Origin: Micromonospora echinaurantiaca
Lineage (GTDB): Bacteria; Actinomycetota; Actinomycetes; Mycobacteriales; Micromonosporaceae
Assembly: GCF_900090235.1 (NCBI RefSeq)
Contig: NZ_LT607750.1
Location: 2,058,501 to 2,122,500 of the forward strand
DNA length: 64,000 nucleotides
Direction of reading: 5' to 3'
Below the pieces are notes generated by a model. It was not told the origin of the DNA and made no database searches. It saw only the letters and a list, made by a program, of their open reading frames with translations. Position numbers and translations under genes: made by a program. Shown in pieces: positions 22,213-33,856 of the stretch. Positions within the stretch are counted from its first letter, which is position 1, and every line of letters begins with the position of its first letter.

Positions 22213-23262
22213 ATGCGTTACCGGGTACTGGGCGGCACCGGCATCGAGGTCAGCGTCCACGCCCTCGGCACGATGATGTTCGGCGCGGTCGGCAACCCCG
22301 ACCACGACGACTGCGTGCGGATCATCCACGCCGCGCTCGACCGGGGGATCAACCTGGTCGACACCGCGGACATGTACTCGGCCGGGGAGAGCGAGCGAAT
22401 CGTCGGCCGGGCGCTGCGGGGCCGGCGGGACGACGTGGTGCTCGCCACCAAGGTGCACTTCCCGATGGGCGAGGGCCCCAACCGGGGCGGCAACTCGCGC
22501 CGCTGGATCCTGCGCGCGGTGCACGACAGCCTGCGCCGGCTGGGCACCGACTGGATCGACCTCTACCAGGTCCACCGTCCCGACCACACCACCGACGTCG
22601 AGGAGACCCTCGGCGTGCTCAGTGACCTGGTCCGGGCCGGCACCATCCGGGCGTTCGGCTGCTCCACCTTCCCGGCCGAGGAGATCGTCGAGGCGCACCA
22701 CGTCGCCGAGCGGCGCGCTCTGGGACGGTTCCGCACCGAGCAGCCGCCGTACTCGATCCTGGCCCGGGGCATCGAGGCCGACGTGCTGCCGGTCTGTCAG
22801 CGGTACGGCATGGGGGTGCTGGTCTGGAGCCCGCTCGCCTCCGGCTTCCTCTCCGGCCGCTACCGGCAGGGCCGGCCGGTGGACCTGACGGCGGGTCGTC
22901 CCGCGCTGACCCCGGCCCGCTTCGACCCGGCGCTGCCCGGCAACGGAGCCAAGTACCGCGCGGTCGAGCAGCTCGTGGAGCTGGCCGCCGACCTCGGTCG
23001 GACGCTGCCGGAACTGGCGGTGGCGTTCACCGTCGCTCACCCGGGGGTGACCTCGACGATCATCGGCCCGCGCACCATGGACCAGCTGGACGGGCTGCTC
23101 GCCGGCGCCACCCTGACCCTCGACGACGCCACCCTGGACCGGATCGACGAGATCGTCCCGCCCGGCACCAACCTGTACGCCCCCGACGGCGTCTGGCGCC
23201 CGCCGGCGCTGACCGATCCGGCCCGCCGGCGCCGCCCGACCGCCGACCGCGCCGCCGCCTGA
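22213..23262 (+). CDS. Aldo/keto reductase
   Basis: This 349-residue NADPH-dependent reductase has the AKR landmarks: Asp and Tyr in LVDTADMYSAGES (about 50-60), the Lys in VVLATKVHF, and the His in LYQVHRPDH. The C-terminal cofactor region TSTIIGPRTMDQL is also present. Start ATG 22213 follows AGGAG at 22201-22205. The MerR-type promoter suggests induction by a small electrophile or stress signal. It ends in front of a strong hairpin shared with the converging C39-like gene. Confidence 0.93.
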   Translation: MRYRVLGGTGIEVSVHALGTMMFGAVGNPDHDDCVRIIHAALDRGINLVDTADMYSAGESERIVGRALRGRRDDVVLATKVHFPMGEGPNRGGNSRRWILRAVHDSLRRLGTDWIDLYQVHRPDHTTDVEETLGVLSDLVRAGTIRAFGCSTFPAEEIVEAHHVAERRALGRFRTEQPPYSILARGIEADVLPVCQRYGMGVLVWSPLASGFLSGRYRQGRPVDLTAGRPALTPARFDPALPGNGAKYRAVEQLVELAADLGRTLPELAVAFTVAHPGVTSTIIGPRTMDQLDGLLAGATLTLDDATLDRIDEIVPPGTNLYAPDGVWRPPALTDPARRRRPTADRAAA

Positions 23263-23303
23263 GGGCGGACGCCTGTGGCGCCGGGCGTCGGGCGCGGGAA
23301 AGC

Positions 23304-23338
23304 CGTGGCCCGGGCTCCCGCCGGGAGCCCGGGCCACG
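23304..23338. terminator. Strong bidirectional hairpin terminator
   Basis: Arms of 17 bases, CGTGGCCCGGGCTCCCG (23304-23320) and its exact complement (23322-23338), meet with one base between them. The structure sits between the converging aldo/keto reductase and C39-like genes, 42 bases after the first stop and 17 after the second. Confidence 0.8.
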
Positions 23339-23354
23339 ACCATGCCACGCGGCG

Positions 23355-23999
23355 TCAGCTGGAGTAGCCGCGCTCCGCGATCCAGGTGGCCACCTTGTCG
23401 TCGCTCATCCAGTAGTGCTTCTTCGGGTCGTACGGGTCGGCGATCTGCACCGCCTCACCGTTGTCGCGGTAGCCGATGATGGTCACGTAGTGTCCGCCCG
23501 GGAACGAGTGTCGCCGGCCCTCGGTGTCGACAGCGGTGCCCATGGTGTTGGCCACCACGCCCCGCTTGCCGTCGACCGCCTCGACCACGTCGGCGCGCAG
23601 CTCATCGACCTGTGCCGGCTCGGCGGTGGGGCCGTCGATCTCGGTGGTCTCGTAGCCGCCGCCGGTCATCTCGTTCAGGACGCGGGTGGTGTCGTCGGCC
23701 GACTGGGTACCGGCCTTGGTGGTGCCCAGCTTCTCCGCCACCTCGCGCTGACTCGGCGTCTTACCCTGCGTGGACAGGGCGATCCGAGTCGCCGCCGGAG
23801 CGCAGTAGTACGCGTTCGGTTGCCGCTGGTACTCGTGGTCGAGCACCTTCTTGTCCTGACCAGGGGGCTCCTCCGCCTGCACCGCGATGGCCGGTTTCGC
23901 TGGCGCGGTCTCGGCGGCGATCGCCGGAACGGCGACGGCTCCACCGGTCATCAGCAGACCGGCAACCGACAGCGCGCTCTTGCGGAAGATCGAGTTCAT
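23355..23999 (-). CDS. Secreted C39-like cysteine peptidase
   Basis: The 214-residue protein has a signal peptide (residues 1-28, ending PAIAA). A C39_2-type papain-like domain follows, with the catalytic Cys in NAYYCAPAATR (about 66), His in GGHYVTIIGY (about 169) and Asp in IADPYDP. It has no transporter module, so it is a free extracellular peptidase rather than a bacteriocin exporter. It lies on the same strand as the PGA locus but is separated from it by 684 bases holding a strong terminator, so it has its own promoter. It could process a secreted protein or peptide at the cell surface; the substrate is unknown. Confidence 0.85.
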   Translation of the reverse strand: MNSIFRKSALSVAGLLMTGGAVAVPAIAAETAPAKPAIAVQAEEPPGQDKKVLDHEYQRQPNAYYCAPAATRIALSTQGKTPSQREVAEKLGTTKAGTQSADDTTRVLNEMTGGGYETTEIDGPTAEPAQVDELRADVVEAVDGKRGVVANTMGTAVDTEGRRHSFPGGHYVTIIGYRDNGEAVQIADPYDPKKHYWMSDDKVATWIAERGYSS

Positions 24000-24380
24000 C
24001 GTGAAGCTCCCATCGGGGTTGACGCCGCTGGGATCGGGAGCGCAAGCACCGCAGGTAGCAGAACCCCGCGCGTACGCCGGAGTCGCTGTTTCCGGACGCT
24101 CCCGGTTCCCGGGCTCTCGATTGGCTTCCCGGCTCTCTCGCCAGACGATTACCCGGCCCGGGTTCGTGAAAACGCCCGCAGGCCGACGCGGTTGGTACTA
24201 CACTCCTGGTCCCCCTCGAGCCCCGGCGGTGGCCGACCCATCCGCCCCGGTCCGTCGAGCTCCGGGATCGCTCCCACGCAAGGGGCCAAGCCGCACCGGG
24301 GACGACCGATCCAGAGCTGGTTCGCCGGCCCGTGGACGGGCGCTTCCGCGTCCACCTCGAACCCGCTGCCGCCCCGGCAT

Positions 24381-24464
24381 CCGACAGCTGCGGCGGGGAC
24401 TCAGCCGGAGCGACGGCCGGTCTGCCGCCCCAGGCTCCGACAGTTGCGGCGGCGGGACTCAGCC
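24381..24464. repeat. Degenerate direct repeat
   Basis: Two copies of a 26-28 base element beginning CCGACAG(C/T)TGCGGCGG and ending GGACTCAGCC lie at 24381-24406 and 24437-24464, their starts 56 bases apart. The second copy has two extra bases inside. They lie in the gene-free gap before the NlpC/P60 gene. The function is unknown. Confidence 0.6.
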
Positions 24465-24510
24465 AGCTGCGGATACCCGCCGCCGGCCCTGACCCTGAGC
24501 GGGTAGCGAT

Positions 24511-24555
24511 CAGCGGGCGGTTGAGCAGCCTCGTGCGCTGCTCAACCGCCCGCTG
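24511..24555 (-). terminator. Perfect 19-bp hairpin, terminator of the pgs-like operon
   Basis: CAGCGGGCGGTTGAGCAGC (24511-24529) and its exact complement (24537-24555) flank a seven-base loop. It lies about 130 bases downstream of the NlpC/P60 stop codon, the last gene of the pgsB-pgsC operon on the minus strand, and probably ends that transcript. Confidence 0.75.
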
Positions 24556-24683
24556 ACGACCAGACGGGGCCGGTCGGGCATCGTCGTGCGATACCCGACT
24601 CGGCCGCGGGTGGGCCGCCGGGCGGGGCATGCCGCCCGGCGGCGGGAACGCGTAGCCGGTGCCGCTGACGCTCGGTGGGCGGC

Positions 24684-25736
24684 TCAGATCCGGCGGGCGG
24701 TGCGCCACCGGTCCGGCCAGTAGCCCATGCCGTCGAGGATGGGTTCGCCGGACAGGTCGCCCATGGTCGGGCCGTCCGTCTGCGAACGGCTGGAGACGAA
24801 CCGGTGATGGCCGCTGTCATCGAGGCCGAGGTAGATGCCGGAGTGGTCGATCTGCCGGCTCGGTACCGGCTGCGCGTTGAAGAACAACAGGTCGCCGGGG
24901 AGCAGGCGGTCGATGCCGCGGGCTCGCTGACCGGTGTTCGGCGTCAGGGCGACCCCTGGGCCCACTTCGGCCATCGCGTACGCGCGGCGCGGCAGCCCGT
25001 CACCCGGGTTGTTGGTGCCGAGCAGCGGAAACCCGAGCCGGTGCCCGTAGACCATCCGCAGGTAGCCGGAGCAGTCCAGCGCCAGGGCGCGTTCGGGGTC
25101 GGGCAGCGAGTTCTTACCGTCCGAGAACGACCACGGGACCTGCAGGTAGTCGTAGAAGTCCGAGCGCTCGGCCCGGCCATCGGGATCCAACGGGTCCGGT
25201 GGCCCGAACGACGCGTCGCCGGAATACTGCTGTCCCTGGTTGTCCTTCTTCGCCGGCGCGCCGTCGACATATTCGAAGGCGATCGCCAGCACGTCCGGCG
25301 AGCGGTCGTTGCGCACCCCCTCGAGCCAGTCGATGAACCACTGCTCCTGTTCGGCGCCCGCCCGCCACGCCTGTGGGGCGAGGCGGACCCAGACGTTGGT
25401 CTCGACCTTGGCGGCGGTGAAGCGTGGTTCCTCGAACGTTCGGAGCGGACCGTAGATCTGCACGGTCCGCGCGCCGTCGGTCATGGTCGCGACGGGTTCC
25501 CCCGACGAGTCGATGATCTCCGTGCGATCAGGCTCCGTCAGGCGCTGGTAGGTGTACCCGGACGCGCCGCGGGTCGGGCCCTGGGACGGCATGCCCGTGC
25601 CCAGGGTGATCTCCGTCTGGTCCGCCGGCGACGGCAGCACCACCGCGTAGGTACCCGCACCGGCGGTGAGCAGCAGGACGAACACGCCGGTAGTCAGAAG
25701 TACGGTCCGTCTGCGCAGGTACGTCCAGTACTTCAT
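24684..25736 (-). CDS. Membrane-anchored NlpC/P60 hydrolase (candidate PGA or peptidoglycan hydrolase)
   Basis: This 350-residue protein has an N-terminal signal anchor (residues 10-32, VLLTTGVFVLLLTAGAGTYA). A middle region without a clear match (about 60-200) precedes a C-terminal NlpC/P60 domain. The catalytic Cys is in LALDCSGYLRMVYG (about 221) and the His in RQIDHSGIYLG (about 297), with HRFVSSR supplying a third polar residue. NlpC/P60 enzymes cut D-gamma-glutamyl bonds. In Bacillus the pgs operon is followed by the NlpC/P60-family PGA hydrolase pgdS, and this gene directly follows pgsB-pgsC in the same order. I infer a PGA-trimming or releasing role. Confidence 0.85.
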   Translation of the reverse strand: MKYWTYLRRRTVLLTTGVFVLLLTAGAGTYAVVLPSPADQTEITLGTGMPSQGPTRGASGYTYQRLTEPDRTEIIDSSGEPVATMTDGARTVQIYGPLRTFEEPRFTAAKVETNVWVRLAPQAWRAGAEQEQWFIDWLEGVRNDRSPDVLAIAFEYVDGAPAKKDNQGQQYSGDASFGPPDPLDPDGRAERSDFYDYLQVPWSFSDGKNSLPDPERALALDCSGYLRMVYGHRLGFPLLGTNNPGDGLPRRAYAMAEVGPGVALTPNTGQRARGIDRLLPGDLLFFNAQPVPSRQIDHSGIYLGLDDSGHHRFVSSRSQTDGPTMGDLSGEPILDGMGYWPDRWRTARRI

Positions 25737-25774
25737 GCCCGCGTCTCCTTTCGCGACTCGGCTCTGGGCTGCGG

Positions 25775-26260
25775 TCAGGTCACCGGCACGAAACCGGCCA
25801 CGACGCCGCTGTACGCGACCCCGAAGGTGATGGCGGTGACGATGACGGTCGCCATGATGGTGGCCTTCGGCGGCTGCCGCACGAGCTGGTACGCGATGAG
25901 CCCGGGGATGACGAAGCCCAGCGTCTGGTGGGCGAACAGCAGCGGAAGGTCACGTTGGACGATGACGAACAGGGTCAGCTGCAACAGGACGCTGAGTAGC
26001 ACGATCGCCGCGAACAGCCGCTTGCCGTACAGGATCACCACCCGTTGCATCAGCAGGGTGAGCAGGTAGGTGAGCACGGTCATCCCGGCGATGATCACCG
26101 CCTGCAGTTGGTCCTCGATGAGCGTCAGGGCGATCCACCCGGGCGTGATCATGCCGCCCGGCGAGAGGTTCGTGGTCAGATAGCACAGCAGCGCGAACAC
26201 CAGGCCGATCCCGAGGCTCGCGGTGGCCAGTTGGGCGCTGAGTTCTCCGCCGAAGGTCAT
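25775..26260 (-). CDS. pgsC: Poly-gamma-glutamate biosynthesis protein PgsC/CapC
   Basis: The 161-residue, very hydrophobic protein has four to five membrane segments. It shares the CapC pattern: a first segment followed by LSPGGMITPGWIAL, then VLTYLLTLLMQRVVILYGKRLFAAIVL and VIPGLIAYQLVRQ. PgsC associates with the PgsB ligase to form the membrane PGA synthase. The ATG at 26260 overlaps the pgsB stop by four bases. Length is slightly above the roughly 150 residues of Bacillus PgsC. Confidence 0.9.
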   Translation of the reverse strand: MTFGGELSAQLATASLGIGLVFALLCYLTTNLSPGGMITPGWIALTLIEDQLQAVIIAGMTVLTYLLTLLMQRVVILYGKRLFAAIVLLSVLLQLTLFVIVQRDLPLLFAHQTLGFVIPGLIAYQLVRQPPKATIMATVIVTAITFGVAYSGVVAGFVPVT

Positions 26261-27498
26261 CGCTGAATCCTTTCTCCGGTCGGCGTACGAAGCGTGGAGG
26301 CCGATGGAGACCCGTCCTCGCAGGTCCAGCCCGGCAGTTCCGCCAGCTTGTGGATCAGGACCTCGCCTTGCCCGTGGATGTTCCCCACGGCGACGATCGA
26401 GGAGTCGGCCGGCGTCTCCGCCATCACGCCCTCCAGCAGGCGGTCAGGGGCGAGCTTGCCGCCGATGTCGACCACCCGGTCCTGAAGCTCCGACGGCACG
26501 CTCGTCCGCGCGCTCTTGGTCACCTCGCCGATGAGAACGATCTTCTCCGGTCGCACCCGGCCGCTGAGTTCACCCATCTGACCGTTGCGCTCGATCCGGT
26601 CCGGCCGGCAGTTGACCACCATCGTCAGCGGACGGGTGATGAGGTGCTGATTCTCCAGTTGCTGGATGTTCATGAAGGTGGACTCGGGATCGTTGGCGGC
26701 GAAGATGTTGGCGAACCGCATCCGCTTGCTGCCGTGCATCACCCGCGCCACGGACAGCACACCGGGGTCGGGCGGGGCCTCCCACATGCCCCGCAGCGCG
26801 CTGTGCCGGTCAACGCCCAGTTGCTCGGCGACGGCCAGCGCGATGGCGACGTTCTCCTTGAACGTGATCCACCCGAACCCGTCCATCTCGCGGTCGGTCA
26901 CCGACTCGGGATCGACCGCGATCAGGCGGCAGTCGCGCCGTTCGGCCTCCTCCTGCAGGATCGCCAGCCGTTCCCGCTCGGCGGTGATGCAGACACCACC
27001 CACCGGCATGGACCGGCTCAGCGACCGGGCCACATCGTCCAGGGTGGGACCCATCTCGGTGAGATGGTCCTCGCGCACGTTGCACAGCACCCCGATGTTC
27101 GACCGGATCAGCTTGCTCTGGTTGACCTCCTGCAGCGCCGGCATCACCGCCATGCACTCCATGACCAGGGCGTCGGGGTGGTAGACGGCGGCCCGCCGCA
27201 CGATCCCGATCTGCTCCACCACGTTCGCGATGCCGAACTTCCGGTGCACCGGCTCTTCACTGGCGTCCGGGAAGATGAACCGGGCCGCGGTGCCGGTGGT
27301 CTTGGCCACCACCACCCGCCCACCGCCGCGCAGCGCGCCGGCACAGAGCCGGGTGATGGAGCTCTTGCCGCGAATGCCGTTGACCAGCACGCGGTCCGGG
27401 ATCTTGTCCAGGTTGCGGTTGTGGTTGCGGTGCTCGACGATCCCGGCGACGAGCAGAGCCAGGCAGCAAAGGACGAATACGACGTATAGATATGCCAC
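26257..27498 (-). CDS. pgsB: Poly-gamma-glutamate synthase PgsB/CapB
   Basis: The 413-residue Mur-ligase-like enzyme joins glutamates through the gamma-carboxyl using ATP. An N-terminal membrane anchor (1-20) is followed by the P-loop NGIRGKSSITRL (39-50) and the CapB-specific blocks VVVAKTTGTAARFIF, ALVMECMAVMPALQ, GVLCNVREDHLTEMGPTLDDVA and MVVNCRPDRIER. The ending VAVGNIHGQGEVLI also matches. I chose GTG 27498, one base after the upstream stop, because the protein then begins exactly at the family's membrane anchor. It is coupled to pgsC by an ATGA overlap. No pgsA/capA-type gene is present in the window. Confidence 0.93.
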   Translation of the reverse strand: MAYLYVVFVLCCLALLVAGIVEHRNHNRNLDKIPDRVLVNGIRGKSSITRLCAGALRGGGRVVVAKTTGTAARFIFPDASEEPVHRKFGIANVVEQIGIVRRAAVYHPDALVMECMAVMPALQEVNQSKLIRSNIGVLCNVREDHLTEMGPTLDDVARSLSRSMPVGGVCITAERERLAILQEEAERRDCRLIAVDPESVTDREMDGFGWITFKENVAIALAVAEQLGVDRHSALRGMWEAPPDPGVLSVARVMHGSKRMRFANIFAANDPESTFMNIQQLENQHLITRPLTMVVNCRPDRIERNGQMGELSGRVRPEKIVLIGEVTKSARTSVPSELQDRVVDIGGKLAPDRLLEGVMAETPADSSIVAVGNIHGQGEVLIHKLAELPGWTCEDGSPSASTLRTPTGERIQR

Positions 27499-27499
27499 G

Positions 27500-29809
27500 T
27501 CAATCCCCTTCGTCTCGGCCGGCAGACTGGTGACCGCCGCGATAGACGGTCGGCGGGGCGACCCTCTCCGGACTGGCCGGCGGTGGCACCTCGGGGAGCA
27601 CCACGGTCGGGTCGTCCTCCGTGCCGCGAATCCGCGGCACCCCGCCCAACCGATCCGAGCCGGTGTGCCGGGCCTGACGGCAGACCTCCAGACACATGGC
27701 CAGTTCCCCGATGTCGTCGTGCCGCTGCGGCGGGATGGGCGTCTCGACCGAGCCGCCGCGGATCCGGTCGGCTTCGGTCGCCAGCCGCCGCAGCGGCCGG
27801 GCGAAGACGTAGTACTGCCACACCTGACTGAGCAGCACGACACCGGTCGCGGCGCCGGCGACCAGCAGCGTCCACCGGCGTCCGTCGCTCTGCGGCAGCC
27901 GCAGTCCGGCCAGGTCCTGCTCCACGACCAGGGACCACTTCAGCGGCGCAACCGTGTTGGGTTTGTTCAAGCCGGCGGCGGCGATCAGGGCCGCACCGCC
28001 CCCAGGCGTCTCGGCCCGCCCCACGGTGCCGCCCTTCAACGCCTCGGCCGCGGCGCCACGGGCGCTGCCCTCCAGCTCCTCGAAGGCGCGGAAGCCCTCC
28101 GAGTCGAAGACCGTGCGCAGATCCTCGTCCACGATCCGGGCCTGGCCGTCCACCTCGCGCAGCATCCCCAGCAGGTAGTCGATGTTGTACTCACCCACCG
28201 TGGCGACGCCGTTGGCGCCGACCCGGAAGGCGTAGACCACCGGGACTCGGGCGGTCTTGTCGTCCAGGTCGATGCCGGCCTCACCCCGCAGCGGCTCCTT
28301 CCGCAGCGGCTCGCGTCCGGCCGAGCTGATCACCGATCCGCTCGAATCCATCAGGTAGAGGCTGCGGAACCGCTGCTTGTCGGCCAGTTCGTGCTTGAGT
28401 AGCGGCGTCAGCTGCGCGGGGTCGCTGGACTCGGCGGTCTGCGAGACGCGGATCACCGTCTGCAGCCCGTTGTTGAGCGCCTTGCCCATCATCGTGCTCG
28501 CCGCCTCGGCCCGGCTCTCCTCGTCCTTGACGAGCTGGTCGGGGATCGACGGCTTGGGCGCGCCGAGGGCGGTCGCCACCGCCGCCGCCGGCCAGAGCAG
28601 CGCTACGACCGTGGCCACGGCCAGGGCCTGCGTCACGGTCGGCCGCCAACGCCACCGCCACCGGGTGCGCGGGCTGCTGGCCGACGAGGTGTCGCCGGAC
28701 GTGAAAGCCAGCGCCTGGGCGATGCGGTGCGCCTCCGCGATCCGCAGCGGATGTCGTTTGGCCGGGGCGGCGCCGGAGGCGTTGGCCTTGGCCTGCTCGA
28801 GCAGCGAGCGCACGGGACGGACCAGCGCCAGCCGCATCAACAGGAAGCTCGGCACCGCCAACGCCAACAGGGTCAGGCCGAGCAGGAGACCGCGGACCGC
28901 GGAGGTACCGCCCGCCTCGTCGGCGACGATCAGGGTCGCCAGCGTCACGCCGGTGTTCCCCACCGGAGCGGACGAGACGACCAACTGGCGGTCCTGCCAC
29001 TCGGTCACCCTGATCGGGTGGCCCTCGCTGGAGTCGGACTGTGCCAGCTCGCCGAAGACCACCGGCAGGTGGACCTCGTCGACGGCACTCACCCCCTGCA
29101 TCAGCGTGCTCTTCCCGTCCGGCGTGAGCACGAAGACGCCCTGGCGGGCCTTGGGATTGAGCCGCAACTCGTCCACGTTGAGCGGTTGCATCGCCAGCAA
29201 GGTCCGCGACTGGTCAAGCGCGATACTGCGGACCAGCGCCGGACCGTCGGCCGTGCTGACCGGGAACACGTTGGCCGGCAGTGTCGGCGGCAGTTGCTCG
29301 AGCGGCAGCTGCGGCCCCAGGGTCGCCACCGGGCGCCGGCTGGCCGTTTCCATGATCGTGGCCCCGTTCCAGGTGGCTCCGTCGCCCACCGCCTGCTTCA
29401 GCAGTTCGGGGTCCGGCGTCCCGGGTGCCCGGGTGGAGACCCGCTGGTCGAGCTCCTCGACCGAGTGCTGGATGGTCATTCGCGTGCTGGTGGCGACCTT
29501 CGACACGTTGTCCCGTTGCGAATCCACCACGGCGGGGGGCACGCCCCGCTGGTGGTTGACGGCGAACCCCAGCACGATGGCCGCCGCCAGGCACATCGTC
29601 ACCCAGAGATACACCAGCGAGGGTGTCCCGGAACCCGCTGGAAACCCGGCAGCCGGTAGCTGCTGCTCCAGGGCGCGTCGCCGCCAGGCGACCATTTCCT
29701 CCGGCGGCAGCTCGGCCGGCTTCCCCGTCACGGGAGCCTGGCCACGGAAGCTCTGCTGTTCTGTGTCCCGGTCAGGCGCAGGCTGTTCGCCTTCGCTCCT
29801 TCTATTCAT
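27500..29809 (-). CDS. Two-module receptor-like membrane protein in the PGA operon
   Basis: I do not recognise this 769-residue protein by name. It has a cytoplasmic Pro/Glu-rich head (1-60) and four membrane segments at about 64-84, 305-327, 392-414 and 648-667. These enclose two large extracytoplasmic domains (about 85-304 and 415-647). The second resembles a Cache-like sensor (FRSLYLMDSSGSVISSAGREP). After the last segment comes a HAMP-like stretch (FARPLRRLATEADRIRGG ... DDIGELA), then a Pro-rich tail with no kinase, cyclase or methyl-acceptor domain. Its stop is one base from the pgsB start, so the two are co-translated. It occupies the place where pgsA would be expected and may sense or organise the PGA polymerase. 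The start ATG 29809 has a GGAAGGGAAGGGG upstream. Confidence 0.8.
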   Translation of the reverse strand: MNRRSEGEQPAPDRDTEQQSFRGQAPVTGKPAELPPEEMVAWRRRALEQQLPAAGFPAGSGTPSLVYLWVTMCLAAAIVLGFAVNHQRGVPPAVVDSQRDNVSKVATSTRMTIQHSVEELDQRVSTRAPGTPDPELLKQAVGDGATWNGATIMETASRRPVATLGPQLPLEQLPPTLPANVFPVSTADGPALVRSIALDQSRTLLAMQPLNVDELRLNPKARQGVFVLTPDGKSTLMQGVSAVDEVHLPVVFGELAQSDSSEGHPIRVTEWQDRQLVVSSAPVGNTGVTLATLIVADEAGGTSAVRGLLLGLTLLALAVPSFLLMRLALVRPVRSLLEQAKANASGAAPAKRHPLRIAEAHRIAQALAFTSGDTSSASSPRTRWRWRWRPTVTQALAVATVVALLWPAAAVATALGAPKPSIPDQLVKDEESRAEAASTMMGKALNNGLQTVIRVSQTAESSDPAQLTPLLKHELADKQRFRSLYLMDSSGSVISSAGREPLRKEPLRGEAGIDLDDKTARVPVVYAFRVGANGVATVGEYNIDYLLGMLREVDGQARIVDEDLRTVFDSEGFRAFEELEGSARGAAAEALKGGTVGRAETPGGGAALIAAAGLNKPNTVAPLKWSLVVEQDLAGLRLPQSDGRRWTLLVAGAATGVVLLSQVWQYYVFARPLRRLATEADRIRGGSVETPIPPQRHDDIGELAMCLEVCRQARHTGSDRLGGVPRIRGTEDDPTVVLPEVPPPASPERVAPPTVYRGGHQSAGRDEGD

Positions 29810-29855
29810 GGCGACCCCTTCCCTTCCGTGAACACCGGAAGTTGCACGGTCGAAT

Positions 29856-30020
29856 CGATCATCGGACTCGACGGGGTGAGCCAGCATCACCTCACCGGGA
29901 CGAACCTGGGCATGCCTCGGACCTCTGCCGGACCCCGCCAAACGCTGGATGGGGCGGTATGACCCGATCATGGAACTCGGCAGGGTGAGCCAGCCTCACC
30001 CTGCCGAGATGAACCCGCGT
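29856..30020. repeat. Diverged direct repeat around the terminator
   Basis: Two aligned 56-base copies begin CGATCAT and run through a shared GGGTGAGCCAGC core, at 29856 and 29965, 109 bases apart. I count about 43 of 56 positions the same, with no gaps. The second copy forms a perfect hairpin; the first has lost most of the pairing. This looks like a duplicated terminator-type element between the gamma-glutamyltransferase and the PGA operon. Confidence 0.65.
29976..30008 (-). terminator. Hairpin terminator after gamma-glutamyltransferase
   Basis: CTCGGCAGGGTGAG (29976-29989) and its exact complement (29995-30008) flank a five-base loop CCAGC. It lies 50 bases past the gamma-glutamyltransferase stop codon on the minus strand, so that gene is probably a separate transcript from the pgs genes. 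Confidence 0.8.
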
Positions 30021-30057
30021 GCCGGGCCGGCGCGGCACGACACCGGCCGGCGTGACG

Positions 30058-31947
30058 TCAGCCCCCGGTGGCGGTGCCGTCCCGGCGTGGGTCGGCCGCG
30101 CCGAGCAGCTGCTTGCCGCGAATCTCGATCGCCGTGAGACCGCTGTCCAGTGCGATGAGTCGGGGACAGGGGTGCCGACGCTCGACGAGGTTCGGCATCC
30201 GTAGGGCCACTCTCCGGTTCGCCTCGATGGCCGACGGCGCATCCCGTTCCCCATCACAGTCGCGGGTGATGTCCTGTCCGCTGTAATGGCCCTGGTTGAT
30301 CGCCTCTGCCGGGGTCATGCCGTCGACGATCACTCCCACGATGGTCTGGACCACGTAGTCAGGAATGTGGGAGCCGCCGGCAGCGCCGACCACCAGCCTC
30401 AGTTCCTTACCCTCACCGTCCAGCACGAGCGTCGGCGCCATCGAGGCCGTGGGCCGCTTCCCCGGCTGCATGACGTTGACGGGCTTTCCCGGTGAGACCG
30501 ACGCGGTGTCCGTGAAGTTGTTCAACGCGTTGTTGAGAATCATCCCCTGGACTTCCAGGTGCGACCCGAAATGACTGTTGTTGGTGGTCGTCATGGAGAC
30601 GGCGTTGCCCTCGGCGTCGACGATGCTCACGTTGCTCGTCGGGTCGCCGACGTCCACCGTGGCGGGTTCGTCGCCCACCACCGGAGGTTCGGGTCGCACT
30701 CCCGGCGGGTCACCCGGTTCGACGGGTCGGACCGCCCGGTCGCGAGAGAAGAGGGAGAAGCGGTTGTCGAGGTACCGGTCGTCGAGGAGACCGTCCACGG
30801 GCACGCCGTGATAGTCCGGGTCACCGATGTAGGCGCGACGGTCCAGATTCGCCAACCGGCTGGCCTCCAGCGACAGATGGATTCGGGCGGCCGAGCCCGG
30901 GTCGGTCTTCTTCACGTCGCCGCGTTCGAGCAGGCCGAGCTCTTCCAGGACCGCCACTCCGCCGAACGCGGGGGGCGGTGAGGTGCACACCGAGACGCCG
31001 AACGGCTTCCGGCAGATCTCGGTGCGCTCCACCGGGGTGTAGTCGGCGAAGTCCTGCGGGGTGATCAGGGAGGGGATCACCACCGGGCCCGCCGTGTTGC
31101 CCTTGAGCTTGATCGGGCCCTTCGCCGCGTGCTTGGCGATGGTCGGGGCGATCTCGCCGTCCGGGTCGTAGAACGCCTCCGCGCCCCCGTCCCGCACCAG
31201 CCGCAGCACCTCGGCGATCTCAGGGTTGTAGAGCGTGCTGCCCACCGGCTTGGGCTCGTCGCCGTTGCAGTAGCGGGGGCGCAGGTCGGGATAGTTGCAG
31301 CGCTTCCGCCCGTTGAAACGCTCCTCGAAACCGTCGTGCAGGTTCGGGGACATGGGGAACCCGTCCTTGGCCAGCCTGATGGCGTCGTCGAAGAGCTGGT
31401 TCCACGGGAGTTCGCCGTACAACTCGTGCACGTCCGCGAGCACCCGCAGGGTGCCGGGAACGCCGAACGCGCGTCCGGTCGCCGAGGCGTCGTTCGGGAA
31501 GCGATCCGTTCCGAGATCCTCGGCCTCCTGCGCGGTGGGCGTCCGCACATTCTCGGTCACGTTCCGCGGCGCTCTGGACATGCCGTCGAAGAAGCGGATG
31601 TCGCGCTTGTCCTTGTCCCAGTGGTTGATGAGCGTGCCGCCGGCGAGCCCGGAGGCGTGCGGCTCCACGACAGCGAGGACCGCCTGAACGGACACCGCGG
31701 CGTCCGCGGCGCTGCCGCCCCTGGCAATGATCTTGCAACCGGCCTCGGCGGCGAGCGGATGGGCGGCGGCCACCATGAACTTCTCGACGACAGCGTCGTC
31801 CTCCCGGCCGCTCTTGCTTCTCGGATTCTTCGTGCAGGCCTCGGCGGGCGCAGCGACCGGAGTTGACGCGGGTGCCACGGCCACGGCGGACATACCCAGC
31901 GCCATCGCCAGCGCGGGAATGAGATGGTGCGCCCTGCGTGCGAACAT
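30058..31947 (-). CDS. Secreted gamma-glutamyltransferase (CapD-like role possible)
   Basis: The 629-residue precursor has a signal peptide (1-37, ending PAEA). The GGT fold follows: AAAHPLAAEAGCKIIARGGSAADAA, then SGLAGGTLINHW. The self-cleavage site and nucleophilic Thr are in GDPTSNVSIVDAEGNAVSMTTT (about residue 436, aligned with the TTHxSVVD site). The small subunit has APTLVLDGEGK and VVGAAGGSHIPDYV. GGT enzymes hydrolyse or transfer gamma-glutamyl groups; the CapD member of this family cuts PGA and anchors it to peptidoglycan in Bacillus anthracis. Location beside pgsB-pgsC suggests a related job. The Cys pairs in the large subunit (e.g. CNYPDLRPRYC) suggest disulfides. Confidence 0.9.
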   Translation of the reverse strand: MFARRAHHLIPALAMALGMSAVAVAPASTPVAAPAEACTKNPRSKSGREDDAVVEKFMVAAAHPLAAEAGCKIIARGGSAADAAVSVQAVLAVVEPHASGLAGGTLINHWDKDKRDIRFFDGMSRAPRNVTENVRTPTAQEAEDLGTDRFPNDASATGRAFGVPGTLRVLADVHELYGELPWNQLFDDAIRLAKDGFPMSPNLHDGFEERFNGRKRCNYPDLRPRYCNGDEPKPVGSTLYNPEIAEVLRLVRDGGAEAFYDPDGEIAPTIAKHAAKGPIKLKGNTAGPVVIPSLITPQDFADYTPVERTEICRKPFGVSVCTSPPPAFGGVAVLEELGLLERGDVKKTDPGSAARIHLSLEASRLANLDRRAYIGDPDYHGVPVDGLLDDRYLDNRFSLFSRDRAVRPVEPGDPPGVRPEPPVVGDEPATVDVGDPTSNVSIVDAEGNAVSMTTTNNSHFGSHLEVQGMILNNALNNFTDTASVSPGKPVNVMQPGKRPTASMAPTLVLDGEGKELRLVVGAAGGSHIPDYVVQTIVGVIVDGMTPAEAINQGHYSGQDITRDCDGERDAPSAIEANRRVALRMPNLVERRHPCPRLIALDSGLTAIEIRGKQLLGAADPRRDGTATGG

Positions 31948-32563
31948 GGAGTGACCTTTCGAGATCGGTCCGGAGCGAAGCGTTCACGCTGACCATCACG
32001 AAGCTCCCCAACCGGAATGCGTCTCCCTGTCTTGCCTCCCGGGCCTGCCGCCCGCGCTCTTCGCCCCGACGTCTCCCGCAGGTGGGCTGCGATCCCGGAT
32101 GGCCCGACCGTCCGAACGGCAGCAGGCGAAGTTAGGGGCATCATCGATGTCACCCGGGTGATGGCGCAGGACATCGCCGGAAGTCGTGGCCTGCGGGGCG
32201 AAGGTGTCGCCGGTGATAGCGGAGAAAGTCCACGCACCTCGACTCGGCGCGCAGGCCGACCGGCGGGCCCTGGTCGTCCCCCGACTGGCCGCCAGTGGCG
32301 ATTCGACGGTTCAGTGCACCACGGTCCGGGCTGTCCGTTCCGCAGGCGCCAGCCGGCGCAATCGGGGCCATCTTACGCTCAGTGAGGAATTGACCCCGAG
32401 AAGTCCACTCTGTGTTAGCGTCGAGGAGGCGGGCCCTGTGATGTGCGGCACTTGCGCCATCACACCGGAACCCATCGCCCTGCCCGACAACAGGTGGTCA
32501 GGCGCCGTGCGCGACCACCACATCCGTCCGGAAGACCGCGCGACATCCACCCGAGGAGCAATC
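31948..32563. other. Divergent intergenic region, candidate promoter at 32390-32420
   Basis: This 616-base gap separates the gamma-glutamyltransferase (leftward) from the DUF6230 gene (rightward). I see no gene I can support. A TTGACC at 32390 and TTAGCG at 32415 with a 19-base interval could be a rightward promoter. An ATG at 32441 is in frame with the DUF6230 gene but has no ribosome site, so that interval more likely is leader. Confidence 0.4.
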
Positions 32564-33178
32564 GTGCAGGAACGGATCGGTAACCCCGTGGGACGTACCC
32601 GGTGGCGAAGGTTCGCCGCGATGCTGGTGCCGGCGAGCGCGGTCGCTGCCGGGATCGTCTTCGGTATGGCCAACGGCGCGATCGCCGCCTCGTTCGCCGT
32701 GTCCGGGCAGACGTTCAAGGTGTCGGCCTCGGAGTTGCAAGGGGAGGGCTTCGTCCAGTACGGCGGGGTCGCCAGGGAGGTCGACGGAACGGAGCACCCG
32801 GTGGCGGTCACCGGCATCCGCGAGGCGCGGCTGTTCGACCTGTGCCAGTCGGTGAAGGCGCCGGGCGCTCCCGTAGTGCTCACCATCACCGCCGGCGGTG
32901 GCGGCCGACCCGCCACGGCGAGCGACCTGCTGCTCGATGTCGAGTCGCTCGAGGGCGACGTCAGGTTCACCAACATCAACATCGGGCAGGACGCGTCGAC
33001 CCTCGAGGGCGGCCCGCCCGGCGCCCGGGGTCCCCGGGGCGCCTTCGGCCAACAGGCCGACGCGGTCAACATCAAGAACCTGCGTCAGGTGGCCCGCTCC
33101 ACCCAGGCCGGGCAGTTCAACCTCACCGGACTGCGGTTGAAGGTCAATGTCGGCCCGGCCGCCAGGGAATGCTTCTGA
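32564..33178 (+). CDS. DUF6230 family secreted protein
   Basis: The 204-residue protein matches a Streptomyces/Micromonospora family of unknown function. It has a GRTRWRRFAAMLVP leader and one membrane/signal segment (about 20-45). The family pattern ASFAVSGQTFKVSASELQGEGFVQYGG is present, then LFDLCQSVKAPG, GGGGRPATASDLLLDVESLEG and an ending AARECF. Two Cys residues (LCQS and the penultimate ECF) may pair. Start GTG 32564 has GAGGAG just upstream. It is followed by a DUF6114 gene, the usual partner of this family. Confidence 0.85.
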   Translation: MQERIGNPVGRTRWRRFAAMLVPASAVAAGIVFGMANGAIAASFAVSGQTFKVSASELQGEGFVQYGGVAREVDGTEHPVAVTGIREARLFDLCQSVKAPGAPVVLTITAGGGGRPATASDLLLDVESLEGDVRFTNINIGQDASTLEGGPPGARGPRGAFGQQADAVNIKNLRQVARSTQAGQFNLTGLRLKVNVGPAARECF

Positions 33179-33250
33179 GCCGGCCGTCCCGGCCGCCAGG
33201 CTCTCCGCGTGCCCTCCCCACCGTCCACTCCTCATCCGGCAGGAGGATGC

Positions 33251-33856
33251 GTGACAGACGCCGAACTCCAGCAGGCCCGGCCCGGCCGGTTCCGCCTGGC
33301 ACGGGACGGTTTCCGCCACTGGCGGCGGACCCGGCCCTTCTGGGGCGGCCTGCTCACCGGCCTGGCCGGCCTCGAAATCTTCGGCACCACCCAGATGTCG
33401 CTCGCTGGTCTCTCCTTCCAGACGGGGCCGACGGGCTTTCTCTCCTGGCTGATCCCCGCCATCCTGGTGACCTGCGGGCTGCTGATGTGGTTCAAGCCGC
33501 AACACCGGGCCCTCTACGCCGTGGTCGCCGCGGTCACCGCCCTCTTCTCGCTGATCGGGGTCAACCTCGGCGGCTTCTTCTTCGGTCTGATCCTCGGCAT
33601 CGTGGGCAGTGCCCTGGGCTACGCGTGGACGCCGGAACCCGCCCCCGCGGTCGGACGCGCAGAGCCCGAGGACGACGCGACGACACGCGAGTCGACCGGG
33701 GAGGGGCGGGGCGGGTCGCCCGACGCCGCGCGGGACGGGTCACCGGACGAGGCGACGACGCGGCGCGATCGGGCGGCCGGGCCGGACCCTGACCGCCCGG
33801 CCCCCGGTGCAGGACCGGCGCCGAGCGGGAGTAGCCGGCCGTCGTCGACGAGCTGA
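33251..33856 (+). CDS. DUF6114 family membrane protein
   Basis: This 201-residue membrane protein matches the DUF6114 pattern: FRHWRRTRPFWGGLLTGLAGLEIF followed by four membrane segments to about residue 125 (FSLIGVNLGGFFFGLILGIVGSALGYAW). A hydrophilic tail (about 130-201) rich in Asp, Glu, Arg and Pro follows and is longer than usual. GTG 33251 has AGGAGG directly upstream. Its stop overlaps the ATG of the next gene by one base, so all three genes are probably one operon. The function is unknown. Confidence 0.85.
   Translation: MTDAELQQARPGRFRLARDGFRHWRRTRPFWGGLLTGLAGLEIFGTTQMSLAGLSFQTGPTGFLSWLIPAILVTCGLLMWFKPQHRALYAVVAAVTALFSLIGVNLGGFFFGLILGIVGSALGYAWTPEPAPAVGRAEPEDDATTRESTGEGRGGSPDAARDGSPDEATTRRDRAAGPDPDRPAPGAGPAPSGSSRPSSTS

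Follow-up and report, generated by a model that had tools for sequence, protein, structure and literature searches.

A poly-gamma-glutamate-type locus of Micromonospora echinaurantiaca in which a two-module HAMP protein accompanies PgsB and PgsC

Poly-gamma-glutamate (PGA) systems of the Bacillus PgsBCA(E)/CapBCA kind combine PgsB and PgsC with a CapA-family protein (PgsA), a PgdS-like NlpC/P60 hydrolase and a gamma-glutamyltransferase (GGT), and deletion of pgsA is reported to block PGA synthesis in Bacillus (PMC5751247). A capsule survey sets CapA as accessory and places PGA systems in most phyla (PMC5542703), so that, going by its scheme, PGA systems without CapA are not new in themselves. 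Here we describe a locus in a 64,000-nt stretch of the M. echinaurantiaca genome (the window; contig NZ_LT607750.1, positions 2,058,501 to 2,122,500 of a 7.2 Mb single-contig genome), which shares the PgsB, PgsC, NlpC/P60 and GGT families with the Bacillus systems but lacks CapA and carries, directly before pgsB, a 769-residue receptor-like protein that we call RCP. Where related loci do have a CapA (22/40), it precedes RCP. The type-2 pgs loci of actinobacteria also hold the PgsB, PgsC, NlpC and CapA families, but these have no RCP, place CapA after NlpC and have a PgsB from a separate clade. In our searches of the open-access literature, no paper described a pgsB locus of actinobacteria that has a Cache/HAMP partner. 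The locus is real and conserved, and RCP is best described as an additional subunit, in our reading a sensor, with CapA optional, instead of a replacement of PgsA.

Gene order around pgsB

GGT, RCP, pgsB, pgsC and the NlpC/P60 gene are open frames, every one on the minus strand. RCP (27500..29809, with an ATG start at 29809) ends at 27500, one base ahead of the GTG of pgsB (26257..27498), which in turn overlaps pgsC (25775..26260) by the bases ATGA. PgsB, a poly-gamma-glutamate ligase of 413 aa whose P-loop GIRGKS begins at residue 41 (27361-27378), scored 391.9 bits against TIGR04012, far above the cut-off of 222.7, and its membrane partner PgsC (161 aa) scored 116.5 bits against PF14102 (cut-off 27) but only 75.6 bits against the stricter TIGR04011 equivalog (cut-off 96.45); phmmer gave no solved relative for either protein. 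The original prediction of a PGA-type locus with pgsB, pgsC and the one-base junction to RCP therefore stands. The low TIGR04011 score could indicate that the PgsB-like ligase serves another amide-linked polymer or modification instead of PGA, which we consider highly improbable given the PgsB score and the presence of NlpC/P60 and, in the window, GGT, both enzyme kinds found with Bacillus PGA. The Micromonospora locus probably makes poly-gamma-glutamate.

The NlpC/P60 protein (24684..25736) is a probable PGA hydrolase, judging by its 30-bit match to PF00877 (cut-off 23), its motifs DCSGY and DHSGIY and its position after PgsC. GGT (30058..31947; PF01019, 369.5 bits), an accessory gene for a probable PGA trimming or recycling enzyme, has Thr437, its nucleophile position, aligned with residue 1 of the light chains in solved GGTs. 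These two genes had been matched to the jobs of Bacillus pgdS and capD; both enzymes are indeed present, but GGT has an ordinary GGT as its best solved relative (4y23, 226.7 bits) and is thus closer to this kind than to CapD, the PGA-anchoring member of the family (chain 3g9k_L, 114 bits).

PgsC (PF14102) was found above cut-off in 10/61 genomes of the genus, 21/150 of the family and 14/394 of the class, in samples that overlap. In addition to the window we fetched 44 such loci, and we scored the genes around them with profiles built from the window proteins and two CapAs. RCP occurred directly upstream of PgsB in 39 of the 45 loci reached through PgsC (the window included), and with a locus of M. 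phytophila found through RCP (L016) this makes 40 RCP-type loci. In every one of these (40/40) RCP stands immediately before pgsB, its stop lying -4 to +15 bases from the PgsB start across families. NlpC follows PgsC in 38/40 (the exceptions being L036 and L061), and GGT was present within the fetched stretches of five loci, namely the window, L016, L022, L023 and L024. In some loci a gene is interrupted by a stop or runs over more than one frame (RCP in L039 and L043, PgsC in L045 and L057, NlpC in L045), either through errors in the drafts or because the gene is broken.

A profile of 26 RCPs, run over the 61 genus genomes, detected full-length RCP (781-986 bits) in 10 of them, each time at an RCP-type locus, and all its other matches covered a short stretch only, at 38 bits or less. 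Because RCP precedes pgsB throughout while CapA occurs in 22/40 loci, and because full-length RCP and RCP-type loci are found in the same 10 genus genomes, RCP-PgsB-PgsC is the constant core of these loci, with NlpC nearly always present, CapA optional and GGT outside the core; the conservation of RCP with pgsB, on which the original prediction hinged, is thus observed. The nearest relatives of the window RCP are from Micromonospora (95% to an M. echinaurantiaca protein). L053 has an RCP with 100% identity to the one from Streptomyces sp. WAC06614, so the class sample includes Streptomyces, and Streptomyces venezuelae has a listed RCP relative (P0099, a protein match only). A further profile search (A2; 7989 candidates sharing most words) added one protein, a HAMP kinase (E 9e-4), and missed the Streptomyces RCP branch, which another search, listing 614 RCP relatives, did recover.

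CapA within and outside RCP-type loci

The window holds no PGA_cap gene, the three matches of the genome lying at 2270947, 2283152 and 6028629, and a tblastn search of the window with eight CapAs produced weak scattered matches only (best E 0.026). That the stretch from GGT to RCP holds a remnant of capA was considered and rejected, as no tblastn match fell there; this 248-bp gap can be aligned, at 76% over 209 bp, with the sequence that separates CapA from RCP in L022. The reported absence of PgsA/CapA is therefore correct, and it is not unique to the window, for 18/40 RCP-type loci lack a linked CapA. In the other 22, CapA is found just upstream of RCP, with 104-422 bases between its stop and the start of the RCP match, and these include L022 and L023 of the window's own PgsB clade (support 100/99), in which the window, L016 and L024 are without CapA. 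The idea that RCP sits in place of PgsA consequently fails: the two occur together, RCP is an additional part, and the window has a locus without capA. On the PgsB tree, CapA presence requires 7 changes, at least 4 of them forced by well-supported branches. The CapAs of L022 and L023 fall within a clade (100/99) that holds the CapAs of RCP-less type-2 loci, which points to a CapA swap in these two loci. Three CapAs (L017:13029-14237, L053:3732-5012 and L026:10715-11875) weakly match the family of the lasso peptide epimerase MslH (27-43 bits, cut-off 700), a resemblance hinting that CapA might act on residue stereochemistry.

The window system could also be an incomplete one, in which a required CapA was lost from the locus and either an unlinked CapA is used or no polymer is made. 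The effect of pgsA deletion in Bacillus, as reported, fits this explanation, as does the retention of CapA by relatives, either as part of the locus (L022 and L023) or elsewhere, in a type-2-like clade (L065 of G038 and L118 of M. phytophila, the latter ~6 kb from the M. phytophila locus). Among the 17 genomes whose RCP locus has no linked CapA, 14 carry a CapA of at least 393 bits elsewhere; for G120 and G300 this CapA is part of a second RCP locus, and for G038, G149 and M. phytophila it is part of a type-2 locus. In the window genome (G000) the best unlinked CapA scores 492.8 bits. However, this last protein belongs to a stand-alone clade (100/100) that also turns up in genomes of the genus where PgsC had no match (G001, G016, G020, G027 and G059), and since PGA_cap genes, present in 60/61 genus genomes, are far commoner than PgsC, the mere presence of a CapA relative says little. 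CapA-less loci moreover recur (18/40), three of the 17 genomes (G083, G089 and G113) have no close CapA at all (best 57-128 bits), and the remaining genes of the window are intact and near those of M. phytophila (RCP 84%, PgsB 92%, PgsC 98%, NlpC 86% and GGT 84%). We therefore regard an incomplete system as very improbable.

Six of the 45 PgsC-reached loci (L026, L041, L046, L047, L048 and L062) have no RCP. Four of these and L117 of M. phytophila show the type-2 order PgsB-PgsC-NlpC-CapA (L026, L046, L047, L048 and L117), so that CapA follows NlpC in 5/7 RCP-less loci; in L062 the CapA match is weaker and only partial, and L041 has none. The PgsBs of the five type-2 loci and L041 form one clade (90/100), and that of L062 stands apart on a very long branch. 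The unrooted PgsB tree allows one or two changes in the presence of RCP, and both kinds of locus coexist in G038, G149 and M. phytophila.

Architecture and surroundings of RCP

Along RCP lie four hydrophobic segments (residues 66-84, 307-325, 395-413 and 646-664), and the protein is built of two modules. The first (residues 66-375; 28685..29614, minus strand) comprises TM1, an extracellular domain, TM2 and a HAMP-like region, and the second (residues 395-714; 27668..28627, minus strand) comprises TM3, a double Cache domain, TM4 and the last HAMP domain (HAMP2). With a set of 103 sequences the two modules are clearly homologous (hhalign E 1.9e-15 over 288 columns), and the alignment indicates that RCP arose through an old duplication of one module; a half-versus-half comparison on a smaller set of 67 sequences gave Prob 4.6. 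A single-module homologue of 374 aa, overlapping PgsB by 4 bases, occurs at L061:10686-11807 and possibly represents the state before duplication.

A HAMP domain was detected in the window RCP (35.1 bits, cut-off 25) and in 26/26 members by Pfam, and HAMP2 is the most conserved region of the protein. The Pfam matches listed for the 26 members up to an E of 0.1 included no output domain (kinase, chemotaxis or other), and NCBIfam gave two weak matches (20-23 bits) over the HAMP region, far below their cut-offs. The predicted architecture of 769 aa with four membrane segments, a HAMP and no known output domain was accordingly recovered by profiles and hydrophobic segments. The C-terminal residues 719-769 are predicted to be disordered. 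We rejected the histidine kinase assignment carried by some UniRef names, as a kinase domain was present in 0/26 members; the database name of the family is only 'cache and HAMP domain-containing protein'. The fold predicted for module 2 is a double Cache, and the extracellular modules, at least the second, appear Cache-like. RCP thus resembles double Cache-HAMP receptors such as PctA/PctC, DctB and KinD in the fold of module 2, the flanking membrane helices and the HAMP, but differs in having two tandem modules and no known output domain. Its best HAMP match among solved structures is AF1503, a membrane protein whose C-terminal HAMP is likewise not joined to any typical output domain; in both proteins HAMP is the sole recognisable cytoplasmic part, but RCP is set apart by its large extracellular domains, its two modules and a partner gene that is constant.

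Upstream of RCP, on the minus strand, we found two copies of a dyad of ~50 nt (copy a, 29965..30015, with 14-bp perfect arms; copy b, 29856..29906, 109 nt from copy a), each followed by a TCGATGATCGA-like sequence, and these are the only such sites in the whole genome within 3 mismatches. Clade relatives carry two (L016, L022 and L023, 104-111 nt apart) or one (L024), located in L022 and L023 between CapA and RCP; the dyad was absent upstream of RCP in ten other loci examined. Against 500 shuffles, the covariation score was reached by 12, the number of both-side pair changes by 32 and that of paired cells by 141, and the folding z was -1.6, which makes a weak case for a hairpin. The dyads may be operators or, equally simply, terminators of the preceding gene. 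Rfam had no match within 23000-33300 at E up to 1, and a sigma-70 scan of 29600-32600 gave no promoter.

Downstream of NlpC lies a minus-strand gene for a secreted C39-type peptidase-like protein (PF13529, 23355-23999), which may belong to the locus and whose relatives lie behind NlpC in L016 and ahead of GGT in L022; between the NlpC and C39 genes is a probable terminator, an inverted repeat whose 20-bp arms pair perfectly around a loop of 7 nt (24510-24556). On the other flank, a DUF6230 and DUF6114 gene pair (32599-33856, plus strand) points away from GGT, with relatives on the same flank in L016, L023 and L024.

RCP as a candidate sensor subunit

A receptor that is always encoded beside PgsB, has a pair of sensor modules and lacks an output domain would most simply act on PgsB/PgsC itself. 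We therefore favour, with a confidence slightly better than even, an actinobacterial class of PGA synthase with the core RCP-PgsB-PgsC, in which RCP is a dedicated sensor subunit gating PgsB/PgsC. The two extracellular modules would read a signal outside the cell, and HAMP2 would relay it directly to PgsB/PgsC, switching the synthase at the inner membrane face, where the P-loop domain of PgsB follows a hydrophobic N-terminus, and so gating synthesis or release of the polymer; NlpC/P60 would trim the polymer, and GGT would shorten or recycle it.

RCP might instead be mainly structural, a PgsA- or PgsE-like assembly subunit that holds PgsB-PgsC together or guides the polymer through the envelope, its Cache fold no longer sensing. 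Its presence beside PgsB, steadier than that of CapA (40/40 versus 22/40), would suit this role, as would the three genomes G083, G089 and G113, which have an RCP locus and no close CapA. Nevertheless, the region most conserved in RCP is a signal-relay domain, HAMP2, and the co-occurrence with CapA makes RCP no simple CapA substitute, so that we consider a structural role unlikely.

HAMP is a very common relay domain that usually acts on a domain downstream of it, and RCP could accordingly pass its signal to an unlinked partner (a transcription regulator, a diguanylate cyclase or an orphan kinase), with pgsB adjacency serving joint expression only. The repeated dyads in the window's clade, if operators, would be compatible with such a partner; by contrast, the spacing held across families is to PgsB itself, and RCP gave no match to a kinase or regulator profile. 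We deem this explanation quite improbable.

Several observations count against RCP as a sensor subunit of the synthase. Contact between RCP and PgsB/PgsC, a ligand and the product are predictions from the genes, and tight spacing indicates co-translation, not contact. PgsB-PgsC loci lacking RCP (6/45) imply that PgsBC can do without it, and the exclusive pairing of RCP with pgsB holds for the genus, whose 61 genomes the search for RCP without pgsB covered. The Cache assignment is weak by sequence (15.1 bits against PF02743, cut-off 45), the conservation of HAMP2 could mirror the general HAMP pattern, and PgsC falls short of its equivalog cut-off, as given above.

More tentatively, and at somewhat less than even confidence, RCP and PgsB-PgsC could form one sensor-synthase machine in Micromonosporaceae and Streptomyces, in which the HAMP of a doubled Cache-HAMP module acts directly on a membrane polymer synthase, bypassing phosphorylation, second messengers and transcription, as a switch of one step from receptor to polymerase, and CapA is dispensable in some lineages. 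If true, a polymer synthase would be a direct target of a kind new for HAMP, and actinomycetes could switch on PGA production when needed. The 'cache and HAMP domain-containing protein' family would obtain a concrete partner, and the distinction between a constant synthase core and an optional CapA would bear on the role of CapA.

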